From the NCBI RefSeq assembly GCF_026410085.1, contig NZ_CP112866.1, forward strand, positions 3,347,001 to 3,411,000: a DNA stretch of 64,000 bases. The letters run 5' to 3'. Below, in pieces: positions 19,253-27,420 of the stretch (its first letter is position 1; each line of letters starts with the position of its first letter). The DNA is from Pseudomonas quebecensis (GTDB taxonomy: Bacteria > Pseudomonadota > Gammaproteobacteria > Pseudomonadales > Pseudomonadaceae). Both the position numbers and the translations under genes were made by a program. The notes below the pieces were generated by a model that worked only from the letters and a program-made list of their open reading frames with translations, had not been told where the DNA came from and made no database searches.

Positions 19253-20278
19253 TCAGTTGAAACCACTGGTGGAAATAAAGTCGACATCGGTTTTGGGCTC
19301 GGCCCGCATCAGCAGCTCGATCACTTGGTCCAAGGTGCGCCCTTCAAACAGGATAGCGTGCAACCCGGCGACCAACGGCATGTACACCCCGGCCTCCTGA
19401 GCCTTGGCCTTGAGAACCTTGAGCGTGTTGACCCCTTCGGCCACTTCGCCCAGGCGCGTGACCGCCTCATCCAGGCTCAAGCCCTGGCCCAGGGCAAACC
19501 CCACCTGATAATTGCGGCTTTTGGGCGAGGAGCAGGTGACGATCAGATCGCCCACGCCGGCCAGCCCGAGGAACGTCATAGGGTTGGCGCCCTGGTTCAC
19601 CGCGAAGCGGGTCATTTCCGCCAGGGCGCGGGTGATCAGCATGCTCTTGGTGTTTTCCCCCATGCCCAACGCCACCGCCATGCCGGCGATGATCGCGTAG
19701 ACGTTTTTCAACGCGCCGCCCAATTCGACACCAAAACGGTCGCTGCTGGCATAAACGCGGAACGTGCGACCATGCAGCACCGCCTGGACACGCTCGCAGA
19801 GCGCTTCGTCGGCGCTGGCCACCACGGTAGCGGTCAGCGCGTGCTCGGCCACCTCCCGCGCCAGGTTCGGCCCGGACAGCACACCAATGCGCGCCTGGGG
19901 CGCGATTTCTTCAAGGATCTCGCTCATCAACTTGAAGGTCTGCGCTTCGATGCCCTTGGTCAGGCTGACCAGCAGCTTGCCCGCGAGACGCTCGGCATGG
20001 GGCGCCAGCACCGTGCGCAAGGCGCTGGACGGCAGCGCGACGAAGCACAGCTCGCAGTCCGTGAGGGTAGCCAGCAGATCGGTGACCGGCTCGACTGCCG
20101 GGTGAATCTTGATGCCTTTGAGGTAACGGGGGTTTTCGCGGTGTACACGAATGGCCTCGGCCTGCTCGGGATCACGCATCCACTGGCGCACCGCATGGCC
20201 GTTCTCGGCCAGCAGGTTTGCCACGGCGGTCCCAAAACTTCCGCCTCCCAGGACCGCAATAGGGCGCTGTTGAGTCAT
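19253..20278 (-). CDS. gpsA: Glycerol-3-phosphate dehydrogenase [NAD(P)+]
   Basis: 341 residues from ATG 20278, the usual length. It has the Rossmann motif [19 protein letters not shown] with the catalytic lysine, [10 protein letters not shown], and [11 protein letters not shown] with the substrate-binding region. The enzyme reduces dihydroxyacetone phosphate to sn-glycerol-3-phosphate, the backbone of phospholipids, in the cytoplasm. It leads the gpsA-DUF4389-sixA operon and is divergent from the TonB receptor gene, with 195 bases between starts. Confidence 0.96.
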
Positions 20279-20473: not shown

Positions 20474-22594
20474 GTGCATCTGCGCCCTCCTCCCCGTTCG
20501 TCTCTTCTGCTGATGCTGCTGTGCAGCAGTGCTGCACTGGCTGACGACTTGTTCCTCGACAGCCAGCCGCTGCCGCAGGTATTGACCGCCACGCGCCTCA
20601 AGCAGTCGGCCGCCGCCGTGCCCGGCAGCATGACGGTGATCGACAGCGAATTGATCAAGGCCAGCGGTGCGCGCGACATCAGCGAGCTGCTGCGCCTGGT
20701 GCCCGGCATGATGGTCGGCTACACCACCGGCAACCAGGCGGCGGTAAACTACCACGGCACCAGCGCCAGCGACGCCCGGCGCATGCAGGTGTTGATCGAC
20801 GGCCGCTCGGTATACCGCGCAGGCCTGGCCACAGTGGACTGGAGCGATATTCCGGTGGCCATGGAAGATATCGAGCGCATCGAGGTGTTCCGTGGCCCCA
20901 ACACCGTCAGCTACGGCGCCAATGCCTTGATGGCGGTGGTCAATATCCTCACGCGCTCACCGGCCAACAGCCATGGCTCGCGGGTCAAAGTGATTCGCGG
21001 CGAGCGCGGCATCAACGACTTCTATGCCAGCCAGGGCGCGGGCTGGGAAACCGGCGACCTGCGCCTGTCGCTGTCCGGGCAACAAGATGATGGTTTCGAC
21101 AGCGATGCCGCCGGTGCCGACCGCCGCGATGGCCGTCGCCTCAACCGCTTCAGCCTGGCCGTAAGCCAGACCTTGAATACGCAGCAGAGCATCGACTGGC
21201 AACTGGATGCGAAGGAAGGCACCAACCAGCGCCCTTACACCTACAGCCCGGTCTTCGCCGGCATTACCGAGGGCGGTACCAATTCCGACGTCACGTCCAA
21301 GGACTACGCCGGTTCCCTGCGCTGGAATTTCGACTTCAACCCGGAACACAGTTTGTATATCCAGGGCTCCGCTCAACGGTGGGACCGCCGGCAGATCTGG
21401 AAAGCCTGCGACGCCAAGGTCTCATTCAGCCCGGAACTGACCCAGCTGTGGCAACTGAACCCCAATTACGCGGAAAAGCTGGCCCGGCATATGGACACCT
21501 ACAGCCAGGGCAGCGCCCCGCCAGGCAGCGCCGCCGAGCAGGCGCTGGCCAACCAGGTGCTGGACCAATGGCGCAACGGCGCCAACCAGAGCGTATGCGG
21601 CGACATCGACCAGAGCACCCGGGAAAGCCGCTACGACCTGGAGATTCAGGACACCCTCAGCCTGTCCGACAGCCTGCGCCTGGTCAGTGGCATGAACTAT
21701 CGCTATGACCGTGCCGACTCCGACACCTATTTCAACGGCACCCTGGACGACACCACCTGGCGCCTGTTCGGCCAGTTGGAATGGCGCGCCAGCGAACACT
21801 GGTTGCTGCAGGGTGGCGCCATGTATGAAGACACTCACCTGAGCGGCAATTCGCTGACGCCCCGGGTGGCGGTCAACTACCTGATCAACCCGCGTCACGG
21901 CCTGCGCGCGGTGTACTCCGAGGCGATCCGCTCGCCGGACATGTTCGAGAACAACGTCAACTGGAGCTACCGCGTCACTAACTTGAGCTCGCCGGCGTTC
22001 GGACAAAGCTCCGCGCAATACTTCGTAAAAACACGTGGCCCCGGCAACCTCGATAAAGAGCTGATGCGCTCACGGGAATTGGGTTACAACGGGTTTTTCG
22101 CCGACGTCGGCCTGAACATGGACGTGAAGCTGTTCTATGACGAGATCACCGACATGATCAGCTCGCCGCTGCGCAATAACCAATACATCGCCAGCAACGC
22201 CAACAGTTCGCGGTTCACCGGCGCCGAAACCCAATTGGACTGGCGCGTCAGCAACGCCGACCGCCTGCGCATGACCTATGCGTACGTCGACGCCACCGCC
22301 AGCAACCCCAGGGACAAGGCGCAAACCGCACGCAACAGTGGCTCGGCCGGCTGGCTGCGTGAATGGGGTCGCGGCTGGTCCAGCGCGCTGTTCTACTATG
22401 GCGACGACGCCCTCAACCAGTACCGCTTCGAACGGGTCGACCTGCGCGTGGCCAAACGCATTGCCTTGGGCAAAGCCAATGTGGAACTGGCCGGCATGCT
22501 GCAGCAGCGCCTCGACGACCAGCCCACCACATGGGCCGACAACACCTATGACCAGCGCCACGTGCTGTACTTCAGTGCGGAGCTGGAGTTCTAG
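20474..22594 (+). CDS. TonB-dependent outer-membrane receptor of a three-gene sensory operon
   Basis: 706 residues from GTG 20474, chosen for AAGG seven bases upstream and because it opens a clean signal peptide (LLLMLLCSSAALA-DD). A TonB-box-like PQVLTAT is at the mature N-terminus, then a plug domain (ISELLRLVPGMMVG, VLIDGRSVYRAG, IERIEVFRGPNTVSYGANA, AVVNILT) and a long barrel ending in YFSAELEF with terminal aromatic F. Two cysteines (in WKACDAK and SVCGDI) may form an extracellular disulphide. The substrate is unknown. The next gene starts one base after the stop, so it is co-translated with a periplasmic binding protein and a hybrid kinase. I recall related genes beside gpsA and fabA in P. 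aeruginosa (PA1613 region). Confidence 0.88.
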   Translation: MHLRPPPRSSLLLMLLCSSAALADDLFLDSQPLPQVLTATRLKQSAAAVPGSMTVIDSELIKASGARDISELLRLVPGMMVGYTTGNQAAVNYHGTSASDARRMQVLIDGRSVYRAGLATVDWSDIPVAMEDIERIEVFRGPNTVSYGANALMAVVNILTRSPANSHGSRVKVIRGERGINDFYASQGAGWETGDLRLSLSGQQDDGFDSDAAGADRRDGRRLNRFSLAVSQTLNTQQSIDWQLDAKEGTNQRPYTYSPVFAGITEGGTNSDVTSKDYAGSLRWNFDFNPEHSLYIQGSAQRWDRRQIWKACDAKVSFSPELTQLWQLNPNYAEKLARHMDTYSQGSAPPGSAAEQALANQVLDQWRNGANQSVCGDIDQSTRESRYDLEIQDTLSLSDSLRLVSGMNYRYDRADSDTYFNGTLDDTTWRLFGQLEWRASEHWLLQGGAMYEDTHLSGNSLTPRVAVNYLINPRHGLRAVYSEAIRSPDMFENNVNWSYRVTNLSSPAFGQSSAQYFVKTRGPGNLDKELMRSRELGYNGFFADVGLNMDVKLFYDEITDMISSPLRNNQYIASNANSSRFTGAETQLDWRVSNADRLRMTYAYVDATASNPRDKAQTARNSGSAGWLREWGRGWSSALFYYGDDALNQYRFERVDLRVAKRIALGKANVELAGMLQQRLDDQPTTWADNTYDQRHVLYFSAELEF

Positions 22595-22595
22595 C

Positions 22596-23525
22596 ATGGC
22601 CGCCCCGTCACGGATGACCTTCTCCTTCATCTCCGCGCTCTGGCGCCGCTGTTCGTTGCTGGCGTGCCTGCTGCTGGCTGCACCGGCATGGGCCGCCGAG
22701 GTATTGCTGACGGCCGCCGAAGACAGTGACGGGGTGCAGGCCTTTACTCAGGCCCTGGCGCGGCAACGCCCCGAAGACCATGTGACGTTCACCCCGCTCA
22801 AAGACTTACCCGCGCCCGGCCGCCTGCCCGCCAGCACACGCTTGATCCTGCTCGACCTGCCCAGTCTCGACTGGCGCCTGCAGGACGATCAGGGCCCACC
22901 GACGCTGGTGCTGCGCATCAGCCGGCTGCAAGCACATCAGCACCCGGGCGCTGCGCAACATGCCCATGTCAGCCTGCTATGGAGCGACCCGCCGCTGGCG
23001 CGCCAACTGCGCCTGATTACGCGCATCCTGCCCCAGGCACGCCGGATCGGCGTTCTGTATGGCGCCGAAAGCGAGTTCCTGCTGCCCGAACTGCGTCAGC
23101 ATGCCGCCCCCCTGAACCTGGAAATCGTGCCCCAGCGTTGGGACAACACCAGTGACAGTCGCCCTCTGCAAAGCCTGTTCAGGAACAGCGACGTACTGCT
23201 GGGCCTGGATGACCCACAGCTGTACAACCCGAAAACCGCAAAAAACCTGTTGTTGAGCAGCTACGCCCAGCAACTGCCGCTGGTGGGCCCCAACGCCGGC
23301 TTTGTGCGGGCCGGCAGCCTGGCCAGCACTTACAGCGACCAGACCGACTGGCTGGCGGTACTCGACCGTTTGCTCGACCATGCCCCCGCCAACTGGCCGC
23401 GCTCGGTGTACCCGGACCATTTCAAAGTGGTGGGCAATGCCCAAGTGGCGCGCTCGCTGGGGATCGAACAGGTCGATGAAGCCCAGGTCGCGGCGCAACT
23501 GGCCGAAGGAGAAAAACGCCCATGA
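22596..23525 (+). CDS. Periplasmic ABC-type substrate-binding protein without transporter genes
   Basis: 309 residues from ATG 22596 (GGAG seven bases upstream, inside the receptor gene). A signal peptide ends near [10 protein letters not shown]. The fold resembles the ABC_sub_bind group (PF04392-like): [20 protein letters not shown] followed by [17 protein letters not shown] and [13 protein letters not shown] are characteristic. No permease or ATPase gene is nearby. The gene starts one base after a TonB receptor and overlaps a hybrid kinase by four bases (ATGA). The context argues for a sensory role: periplasmic ligand presentation to the kinase. The ligand is unknown. Confidence 0.75.
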
Positions 23526-25423
23526 CCCTGCGCCGTCGTTGGGACATCAATACCCGTACCCAGCTCATTACCCTGGGCCCGGCGCTGGTGCTGACATTGC
23601 TGCTGATCAGCTTCTTTACCTTCGTGCGCATCCAGGACCTGCGCCAGGAGCTGGACCACACCGGGCAACTGATCGCCAACCAGTTGGCGCCGGCCACTGA
23701 ATATGGGGTGATTTCCGGCAACACCGACGTGCTCGAGAGCCTGCTGCGCGCCACGCTGGCGACGCCTCATGTACGTTTCCTGGAGATTCAGGACAGCACC
23801 GAGAATATTCTGGTGTACGTCGAACAGCCTTCGGAAAAACATGATCGCTCGCTGTCGGTAAAAGTGTTCCAGGCGCCGATTCGCCTGCAGCATATCCAGC
23901 TGGGCAACGACTTTTTTCAGGACAACCTCAACGAAACCAAGGCGCCGCGTGCCGACTACCTGGGTCGGGTCATCGTCGGTATGTCCAACGATGCGTTCAG
24001 CCAGCGCCAGCAGGAGATCCTGCTCAAGGCCGGCATCCTGGCGCTGTTCACGCTGCTGTTTACCTTCCTGCTGGCCCGGCGCCTGGCCGCCAGCCTGTCG
24101 CAGCCGATCAGCGCCATGGGCACTGCGGTAAAAGCTATCCAGCAGGGCCACTACAAGACCGCGCTGCCGATCGTGGATGACTCGGAGCTGGGCGATCTGT
24201 CGCGGCATATCAACAACCTGGCCGAAGGCCTCAACCAGGCCAGTCGCGAACAACAGCAGGCCATGGCCCAATTGATCCAGACCCGCGAAGAGGCCGAGCG
24301 CGCGAATAACGCCAAATCGGATTTCCTGGCCATGATGAGCCATGAATTGCGCACTCCGATGAACGGCGTGCTGGGCATGCTGCAGTTGCTGGAAACCACC
24401 GAGATGACCGAGGAACAGACCGAATATGCGGCGCTGGCCTCCGAATCCACCGAGCATTTGCTCAAGGTGATCAACGACATCCTCGATTTCTCGCGCATCG
24501 AACGGGCGGCCCTGGAGCTGGAACATATCCCCTTCAACCTGGCCGACCTGATCAACAGCTGCGCCCAAGCCTTCCAGCACAGCGCCCAGCAGCGCGGGCT
24601 GGCGCTGCGACTGCCGATCCCGCCGGGCATGGAGGCGCTGCGGGTGCGGGGCGACCCCACGCGTATCCGGCAGATTCTGGTGAACCTGATCGGCAACGCA
24701 TTGAAGTTCACCGAGCAGGGCAGCGTGAGCGTCGAACCCCATTGGCAGACCCTCGACCATGAGCTGGTGTGGTTTACCTGCACCGTGCGCGACAGCGGAA
24801 TCGGAATTTGCGCCGAACGCCTGGAACTGATGTTCGATGCGTTCCAGCAAGCCGACAGCTCCATATCCAGGCGCTACGGCGGCACGGGCCTGGGCCTGCC
24901 CATCGCGCGTACGCTGGCCGAACGCATGGGCGGCACACTGCGCGCCCAGAGTGAAGAAGGCCGTGGCTCGGTGTTTACCCTTGAGCTCCCGCTGGCCATC
25001 GACCAGCACAGCCTGCCCTCCGCTCCCCCCGATGCCGAGCGCAAAGGCGCCGCCGGCGAAGGCCGTCACGTGCTGCTGGTGGAGGACAATCCGGTCAACC
25101 GCACCGTGGTGGAAGCCATGCTGCGCAGCCTCGGGTACGAGGTGAGCCTGGCCACCGACGGCGCCGAAGCCATCCGCAGCGCCGAAAGCCTGATTTTCAC
25201 GGCGATCCTGATGGATTGCCGCCTGCCGCTGATCGATGGTTACGAAGCCACTCGGCAGATTCGCCGGTTACCCGGCTGCGCCGACCTGCCCATCATTGCC
25301 CTGACCGCCAACGCCTTGCAGGGCGACCGTGAAGCTTGCCTGGCGGCGGGAATGAACGATTACCTGGCCAAGCCGTTCAAACGTACCGATCTGCAGCAAA
25401 TCCTGCAGCGCTGGGTGCAGTAA
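23522..25423 (+). CDS. Hybrid sensor histidine kinase, BarA/PA1611-like
   Basis: 633 residues. TM1 about 15-34, a periplasmic sensor about 36-165 opening with [20 protein letters not shown] (BarA/GacS-like), TM2 about 166-185, HAMP 186-240, HisKA with His274 in [12 protein letters not shown], HATPase with [14 protein letters not shown] and [10 protein letters not shown], then a receiver at 515-630 with Asp565 and Lys617. There is no Hpt domain, so phosphate must pass to a separate Hpt protein. Domain order and position before fabA-fabB match P. aeruginosa PA1611, reported to interact with RetS and affect Gac signalling. It is the last gene of the receptor operon. Confidence 0.9.
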
Positions 25424-25672: not shown

Positions 25673-26188
25673 ATGACCAAACAAAACGCCTTTACCCGGG
25701 AAGACCTGCTGCGCTGCAGTCGCGGTGAGCTGTTCGGCCCAGGTAACGCGCAACTGCCCGCCCCCAACATGCTGATGGTGGATCGCATCACCCATATCAG
25801 CGAAGAAGGTGGCAAGTACGGCAAAGGTGAATTGGTCGCCGAGCTGGATATCACCCCGGACCTATGGTTCTTCGCCTGCCATTTTGAAGGCGATCCTGTG
25901 ATGCCAGGTTGCCTGGGCCTCGACGCCATGTGGCAGTTGGTCGGTTTCTTCCTCGGTTGGCAAGGCCTGCCGGGGCGCGGCCGTGCCCTGGGTTCGGGCG
26001 AAGTGAAATTCTTCGGACAGGTCCTGCCGACCGCGAAGAAAGTCACCTATAACATTCAAATCAAGCGCGTCCTCAAGGGCAAGCTGAACCTGGCCATCGC
26101 CGATGGTTCGGTGAGCGTCGACGGTCGCGAGATCTATACTGCCGAAGGCCTTCGGGTCGGCGTATTCACTTCCACTGACAACTTTTAA
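25673..26188 (+). CDS. fabA: 3-hydroxydecanoyl-ACP dehydratase/isomerase
   Basis: 171 residues, the standard length. His70 in [14 protein letters not shown] and Asp84 in [11 protein letters not shown] form the FabA catalytic pair. The enzyme dehydrates 3-hydroxydecanoyl-ACP and isomerises trans-2- to cis-3-decenoyl-ACP, the branch into unsaturated fatty acids. GAGGAG five bases before the ATG is a strong ribosome site. fabB follows after 11 bases, the usual fabAB operon. A DesT-like site lies upstream. Confidence 0.97.
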
Positions 26189-26199
26189 GGGTTATCCGC

Positions 26200-27420
26200 A
26201 TGCGCCGCGTCGTTATCACTGGTCTGGGCATCGTTTCTTGCCTGGGCAATGACAAAGAGACCGTCACCGCTAACCTGCGTGCAAGTCGCCCTGGCATCCG
26301 CTTCAACCCGGAATATGCCGAAATGGGTCTGCGTAGCCAGGTTTCCGGCTCCATCGACCTGCCCCTCGAAGAATTGATTGATCGCAAGATCTACCGCTTC
26401 GTCGGCCACGCCGCCGCCTACGCCTACCTGGCCATGAAAGACGCGATTGCCGACTCCGGCCTGAGCGAAGACCAGGTGTCGAACGTGCGCACCGGCCTGA
26501 TCGCCGGTTCGGGCGGTGCATCCACCCTGAACCAGATGGAAGCGCTGGACATCCTGCGCGAAAAAGGCGTGAAGCGTGTCGGCCCGTACCGTGTGACCCG
26601 TACCATGGGCAGCACCGTTTCGGCCTGCCTGGCCACTCCGTTCCAGATCAAGGGCGTGAACTACTCGATCTCCTCCGCCTGCGCCACCAGTGCTCACTGC
26701 ATCGGCACTGCAGTCGAGCAGATCCAGTTGGGCAAGCAGGACATCGTATTCGCCGGCGGCGGTGAAGAAGAACATTGGAGCCAGTCGTTCCTGTTCGACG
26801 CCATGGGCGCGCTGTCCACCCAGTACAACGAAACCCCGGAAAAAGCCTCCCGTGCCTACGACGCCAAGCGTGACGGTTTCGTCATTGCCGGCGGTGGCGG
26901 CATGGTGGTGGTCGAGGAGCTGGAACACGCCCTGGCCCGTGGCGCCAAGATCTACGCGGAAATCGTCGGTTACGGTGCCACGTCCGACGGCTACGACATG
27001 GTTGCGCCAAGCGGTGAAGGCGCGATCCGCTGCATGCAGATGGCGATGTCCACTGTCGACACCCCAATCGACTACCTGAACACCCACGGTACTTCGACTC
27101 CGGTCGGCGACGCCAAGGAAATGGAAGGCGTACGTGCGGTATTCGGCGACAAGGCACCGAAAATCAGCTCTACCAAGAGCCTGTCCGGTCACTCCCTGGG
27201 TGCCGCCGGCGTTCACGAAGCGATCTACTGCCTGCTGATGATGGAAGGCAACTTCATGGCCGGCTCGGCCAACATCGACGAGATCGACCCGGTCGTCGCC
27301 GATATGCCGATCCTGACCAAGACCGTCGAGAACGCCAAGATCGACACCGTGATGAGCAACAGCTTCGGCTTCGGTGGCACTAACGCTACCCTGGTGCTCA
27401 AGCGCTGGCAGGGCAAGTAA
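26200..27420 (+). CDS. fabB: 3-oxoacyl-ACP synthase I
   Basis: 406 residues. The Cys-His-His triad is in place: Cys161 in [12 protein letters not shown], His296 in [11 protein letters not shown] and His331 in [11 protein letters not shown]. FabB elongates cis-3-decenoyl-ACP with malonyl-ACP and so commits carbon to unsaturated chains made by FabA. It is co-transcribed with fabA and ends at a strong bidirectional terminator. Confidence 0.97.

Follow-up and report, generated by a model that had tools for sequence, protein, structure and literature searches.

The window analyzed here, a stretch of 64,000 nucleotides from Pseudomonas quebecensis (contig NZ_CP112866.1), carries adjacent genes for a TonB-dependent outer-membrane receptor, an orphan periplasmic substrate-binding protein (SBP), and a hybrid histidine kinase of the PA1611 type with an sCache_4 sensor domain. 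The reading frames leave a gap of 1 base between the receptor and SBP genes and an overlap of 4 bases between the SBP and kinase genes, and the unit is flanked by the divergent gpsA gene and by fabA-fabB (Table 1). From gene content, distribution across genomes, and sensor conservation, we consider it fairly probable that the sCache_4 sensor is controlled by docking of the SBP and that the ligand comes in through the receptor, in what would be a trans-envelope sensing module.

The three gene identities, together with the gap and the overlap, had been proposed in a first-pass annotation and are confirmed by the reading frames and by Pfam. The receptor contains both the Plug and the TonB barrel domains by which a TonB-dependent transporter is recognized, with no Pfam match to an STN domain, and the kinase has the architecture sCache_4-HAMP-HisKA-HATPase-REC (REC, receiver), with sCache_4 at 29.6 bits (cut-off, 22.1) and no Pfam match to an Hpt domain. 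The SBP narrowly misses the gathering cut-off of PF04392 (ABC_sub_bind; 24.4 against 25.9 bits), a family that its relative at locus L134 matches at 50.7 bits, and an alternative ATG start at position 22617 is possible because relatives of 303 aa exist. As the annotation had stated, the SBP comes without a permease or ATPase in its unit: the interval from gpsA to fabA in the window contains no gene for an ABC permease or ATPase, nor does that from cysM to acpS in L134, and neither genome was searched elsewhere for a permease. L134 is the only other locus whose flanks were fully checked in this respect, the unlabelled neighbours at the remaining loci not having been scanned individually. Terminator-like sites were absent from the forward strand between 20200 and 25750 (scan total below chance), promoter matches were no more than chance, and the Fur-box pattern had zero matches in the window.

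The proposed unit is conserved as a trio and is more than a chance arrangement, since its genes are found in one and the same order across Pseudomonas and many other families. A search with an SBP profile through 369 class genomes gave 83 SBP hits in 78 genomes, of which 59 hits were examined in addition to genome G545, and a scan of named genomes with a four-row SBP alignment gave 31 further loci, with some near-duplicates between the two sets. Among the 90 loci outside Pseudomonas, 86 have a clear SBP open reading frame (ORF), which in the other four was masked by overlapping ORF picks. A TonB receptor lies directly upstream of the SBP in 65 of the 86 loci, the ORF directly downstream is 350 aa or longer in 78, and both hold in 59; the overlap between the SBP and the downstream ORF is exactly 4 bases in 42 of the 78.

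Within Pseudomonas, a survey of 219 genomes (E-value thresholds of 1e-180 or lower for the kinase, 1e-20 or lower for the SBP, and 1e-100 or lower for the receptor) found the kinase in 214, the SBP in 162, and the receptor in 150, and all 150 receptor-bearing genomes also have the SBP. The pattern is nested, receptor within SBP within kinase, with G545 as the sole exception, and in four genomes (G422, G567, G573, and G583) neither SBP nor kinase reached these thresholds. In G545, locus L119 holds a Pseudomonas trio in which the kinase is split over three reading frames and the receptor and SBP are open, through either disruption or sequencing error. The flanks gpsA and fabB were present in all 12 mapped Pseudomonas loci and fabA was called in 11; four of these loci have three genes, two have the SBP and kinase, and six have only the kinase. 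Receptor remnants of 95-103 aa in three (L279, L280, and L281) of eight inspected loci with SBP and no receptor, and an SBP remnant of 137 aa in L276, suggest a step-wise decay of the unit in this genus.

The downstream partners usually have a sensor domain in common. Among 78 sensors (that of the window and 77 others, with the purK-like ORF of L173 left out), each scanned over its first 380 residues, HAMP was found in 73, sCache_4 in 68, HisKA in 66, and GGDEF in 6. At loci L127, L217, and L220, the order is sCache_4-HAMP-(PAS-)GGDEF-EAL, the latter two loci coming from Sulfurimicrobium and Methylophilaceae records, which we take to be betaproteobacteria. The SBP thus usually pairs with the sCache_4 input domain rather than with any one output. 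Co-occurrence, too, pairs the SBP with the periplasmic domain of the sensor: of the 369 class genomes, 55 have both, 23 only the SBP, 23 only sCache_4, and 268 neither, and 52 of their 86 sCache_4 domains are encoded directly downstream of an SBP gene. When 20 of the other 34 sCache_4 loci were inspected, a broader profile revealed an SBP immediately upstream in four, and L263 had one downstream; for most of the remaining inspected loci, there was no SBP within the stretch examined. The sCache_4 domain presumably bore the former name DUF2222. DUF2222 has been described as the part with which kinases of the BarA/GacS type sense their input, and has been placed with LuxQ-periplasm in the Cache clan (PMC4822843).

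The pace of sensor evolution differs between kinases with and without the SBP. In a comparison of 44 Pseudomonas kinases (27 with the SBP and 17 kinase-only), pairs lacking the SBP show greater divergence of the sensor domain than other pairs whose cores have diverged to the same extent. The sensor/core length ratio, taken on the core tree, is 0.89 for SBP-bearing and 1.65 for kinase-only branches, with a minimum of six state changes. Columns conserved in SBP-bearing and eroded in kinase-only copies number 14 of 62 in the sensor and 10 of 268 elsewhere; none of 300 label permutations, which ignore relatedness, reaches the observed sensor erosion, and the strongest losses affect residues L127, D130, and F131. 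Class-wide, D or E occupies position 130 in 74 of the 84 SBP-linked sensors and in 5 of the 19 that are unlinked; for G66, the counts are 62 of 84 and 4 of 19, and for E60, 69 of 84 and 9 of 19. This comparison left out L213 and L173, and five loci first tagged as SBP-less (L255, L259, L261, L263, and L265) were moved to the linked set when an SBP was seen alongside. The relaxed constraint in SBP-less copies fits the loss of an input partner, and together with the contrasts at positions 130, 66, and 60 provides evolutionary signs of the contact between SBP and sensor that the first-pass annotation had proposed.

The model of the sensor is of moderate confidence (predicted local distance difference test [pLDDT], 74.5), with residues 128-141 below 50, starting at the LGNDFF loop, and D130 is accordingly placed by prediction in a mobile loop. 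In the periplasmic domain of GacS, the major loop is reported to be mobile and to contain residues required for function (PMC5595915). Judged by conservation, residues around 58-67 and D130 may form the face on which the SBP docks.

In the mechanism that we propose, (i) the TonB receptor would bring into the periplasm a ligand that is scarce or bulky; (ii) the PF04392-like, two-lobed class I SBP, whose fold is predicted with high confidence, would capture it; (iii) the SBP, loaded or empty, would dock on the kinase sCache_4 domain at the helix motif 58-67 and the D130 loop, as conservation and erosion suggest; (iv) docking would set kinase activity through the second transmembrane segment and HAMP, as is known for the family; and (v) in Pseudomonas, the signal would go on to HptB and RetS/Gac, in line with reports on PA1611. 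The pairing of SBP and sCache_4 is general: besides a kinase of the PA1611 type, the output can be an Hpt-containing kinase of the GacS/BarA type or GGDEF-EAL.

Several observations weigh against this reading. Within Pseudomonas, the receptor is dispensable, the SBP occurring without it in 12 of the 219 genomes, and so is the SBP, the kinase occurring without it in 53. Outside Pseudomonas, receptor and SBP are followed by a purK-like ORF in L173 (one of the 78 downstream ORFs) and by TrmO-fabA-fabB, with no kinase, in L158 (2610-8646) and L163 (G165 and G279), and all counts take related genomes as separate, with near-duplicates kept in. The terminal-branch test alone gives p = 0.02; some kinase-only copies keep the loop (G441 and G474, and partly G507, G496, and G536); 6 of 15 position tests (58, 59, 62, 91, 119, and 148) show no difference between linked and unlinked sensors; and the alignment around position 130 is uncertain because the loop is gappy. 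The partial Mantel correlation of SBP with sensor (0.41; 62 of 78 loci plus the window) is little above that of the REC control (0.31), and co-divergence was counted as weak evidence because the control is also positive. The annotation had itself named a kinase found widely without the other two genes as a finding that would speak against it; this is true in part, given the 53 genomes, but in the 17 SBP-less copies examined the sensor has lost constraint.

Table 1. Genes, sensor features, and binding-protein residues of the receptor-SBP-kinase unit and its flanks (positions in the window)
Feature	Position	Strand	Remarks
TonB-dependent receptor gene	20474..22594	+	706 codons/aa; GTG start at 20474; Plug and beta-barrel
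Orphan periplasmic binding protein (SBP) gene	22596..23525	+	309 aa; ATG start at 22596; PF04392-like
PA1611-type hybrid histidine kinase gene	23522..25423	+	633 aa; ATG start at 23522
Kinase periplasmic sCache_4 region, residues 36-165	23627..24016	+	family profile A5 matches GacS periplasmic domain 5O7J
Sensor motif, residues 58-67	23693..23722	+	conserved helix motif of SBP-linked sensors
Sensor loop LGNDFF, residues 127-132, including D130	23900..23917	+	kept when SBP present, often lost when absent
Putative phospho-accepting His274 in SHELRTP	24341..24343	+	role from family knowledge
Receiver Asp565	25214..25216	+	number identical to PA1611 Asp565
SBP D206	23211..23213	+	invariant in 21-row alignment A1; at least 90% in 70-row A7; aligns with CD0873 Asp-238
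SBP N233	23292..23294	+	at CD0873 Glu-263 selectivity position (alignment)
SBP Q249	23340..23342	+	at CD0873 Tyr-279 / SP1069 Gln-284 selectivity position (alignment)
gpsA	19253..20278	-	divergent upstream flank
fabA	25673..26188	+	downstream flank
fabB	26200..27420	+	3' of fabA

The 12 receptor-less genomes, and the receptor remnants described above, would also suit an arrangement in which sensing is the work of the SBP and kinase together. The TonB receptor would then be a dispensable addition, or an importer with no part in sensing that linkage has retained, and the ligand could also enter through porins. Outside Pseudomonas, 21 of the 86 loci have no receptor call directly upstream, although three of these lie at a contig edge and some are ORF-picking misses (e.g., L128, where the receptor is present). 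However, a receptor without the SBP is found in none of the 219 Pseudomonas genomes, and the distances of receptor and SBP remain correlated once the kinase core is accounted for (partial r of 0.63 over 52 loci). We regard this arrangement as clearly less probable than a module with a ligand-supplying receptor.

Sources label close relatives of the SBP as ABC transporter substrate-binding proteins, which would agree with receptor and SBP jointly taking up a nutrient, for instance one resembling an aromatic amino acid, with the help of a permease whose gene lies elsewhere, the kinase being a co-regulated or regulating operon neighbour. The units of the window and of L134, the extent of our search for a permease or ATPase, offer none; moreover, the downstream partner has the same sensor domain even when its output changes, and SBP loss relaxes this domain and not the catalytic core, all of which makes uptake as the sole role of the pair improbable. 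That the three genes travel together by ancestry without interacting, fast sensor evolution being a lineage effect, would accommodate the phylogenetic non-independence of the counts, the positive Mantel control, and the modest terminal-branch test, but is rendered very improbable by the concentration of erosion in the sensor, by position 130 being conspicuous in the Pseudomonas comparison as well as in the class-wide one with unlinked sensors, and by a pairing that persists across different outputs and genome sites.

The unit extends well beyond PA1611, to which the first-pass annotation had confined it, and many other genomes have its kinase as their top match to the GacS/BarA family. In 47 genomes, nearly all chosen for having the SBP, a BarA-family match was found in 46, and the best match adjoins the SBP in 36 of these. 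At L134, the order is a cysM-like PALP gene, a PF10108 exonuclease, receptor, SBP, kinase, acpS, pdxJ, and recO, and markers of the GacS/BarA site surround the module on both sides in 19 and on one side in 11 of the 59 class loci, and in 8 and 5 of the 31 named loci, respectively. E. coli barA adjoins rlmD-relA, with mazG beyond, and G030 and G082 have GacS-like kinases at the GacS/BarA site without receptor or SBP (L211 and L212). The SBP-linked kinase of G358, which has no receptor called directly upstream, passes the curated cut-off of the BarA model NF008318 (919.6 against 890 bits).

A quick tree of 95 of 114 kinases, which left out GGDEF outputs, fragments, and two own paralogs, places E. 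coli BarA and Pseudomonas GacS in a 16-row group (Shimodaira-Hasegawa-like approximate likelihood ratio test, 99) with the SBP-linked kinases of L139, L145, L226, and L229. The PA1611 clade (100; six rows, the window kinase with other Pseudomonas copies) lies outside this group and joins SBP-linked kinases of Tamilnaduibacter and G030 (99). The window kinase was considered as a GacS itself and rejected, as it scores 457.7 bits against NF008318, has no Hpt match, and branches outside the GacS/BarA group. Tentatively, and at somewhat less than even likelihood, the GacS/BarA family may have begun as the inner-membrane end of a TonB-receptor/SBP relay, which many gammaproteobacteria keep, the GacS/BarA of model organisms being derived orphans without an SBP. 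Ancestral-state parsimony gives an SBP-linked root 13 changes against 14, a margin so small that SBP-linked ancestry is not claimed as shown. If this origin holds, the GacS signal is best sought as the SBP ligand in genomes that keep the SBP.

GacS, BarA, and LetS kinases share the sCache_4 sensor, HAMP, and HisKA with the SBP-linked kinases, but E. coli barA and the GacS gene of P. quebecensis itself have no adjacent SBP gene, unlike the window kinase. Sensors controlled by binding proteins are already known, and the receptor-SBP-sCache_4 module would be a variant with unusual reach. In Vibrio, the soluble periplasmic binding protein LuxP controls the hybrid kinase LuxQ, and in TorT-TorS and NspS-MbaA a binding protein regulates a membrane sensor (a kinase or a cyclic di-GMP enzyme); none of these units is known to include a TonB receptor. 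The binding-protein and Cache families of LuxP-LuxQ differ from those of the window unit, as do the binding proteins and sensor domains of the other two systems. FecA-type TonB-dependent transducers likewise place an outer-membrane receptor in a signalling pathway, as proposed here; in contrast, the window receptor has no STN match, and its divergent neighbour is gpsA and not an anti-sigma gene. No publication describing a receptor-SBP-kinase unit was found among titles and abstract openings, a coverage that excludes most subscription journals.

The likeness of the window kinase to PA1611 of P. aeruginosa comes from gene order (upstream of fabA) and from the residue number of the receiver aspartate. 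PA1612 and PA1611 are reported to form an operon whose transcription also covers fabAB (PMC3462791). PA1611 is reported to have its receiver residue at Asp565 and to take part in phosphotransfer to HptB (PMC7467158), and to relieve the inhibition of GacS by RetS (PMC7695008, PMC5595915). From gene order, we infer that PA1612 is the SBP and PA1613 the receptor; the latter featured in a study of iron acquisition proteins (PMC9864456). If our reading is correct, PA1611 gains an input pathway, and the loss of sensor constraint in SBP-less Pseudomonas lineages is explained. The ligand of GacS was called unknown in a 2020 review (PMC7695008), and a relay at the GacS/BarA sensor gene of many bacteria would be a concrete lead on this long-sought signal. 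Should a ligand captured by the SBP be what SBP-linked kinases of the GacS/BarA and PA1611 types sense, recovering it from a small soluble protein would be far easier than identifying what a membrane kinase binds.

The AlphaFold2 model of the SBP (pLDDT, 92) has the fold of solved PF04392 members, its nearest solved folds being CD0873 (6HNJ), VC_1101 (3LKV), and SP1069 (3LFT). These aromatic-amino-acid binding proteins, which share family and fold with the window SBP, are reported to hold Tyr, Phe, and Trp (PMC6816091). CD0873 has been proposed to serve import, and the window SBP differs from it at both selectivity positions, N233 and Q249, the latter matching the residue in the Trp binder SP1069. 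As a lead from this alignment, the SBP ligand may be aromatic or amine-bearing.

The arrangement of the module varies outside Pseudomonas. Fusion of SBP and kinase was considered for the four loci with masked ORFs (L133, L138, L165, and L172) and rejected, since the SBP-matching ORF is separate from the kinase ORF in each. With L158 and L163, a fabAB-side location of a receptor-SBP pair thus exists outside Pseudomonas, without a sensor gene. At L255, an SBP-sensor pair has the TonB receptor on the opposite strand, and at L074 (8877-10895; G030) a gene with a Pkinase domain, not a receptor, precedes the SBP-kinase pair. At L157 and L263, the kinase comes first and the SBP second, and therefore the SBP need not precede the sensor; G092 has another locus with the SBP downstream of the sensor. 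Finally, a response regulator with a LuxR-type DNA-binding domain stands directly before the SBP-kinase pair at L164 (3871-4533).

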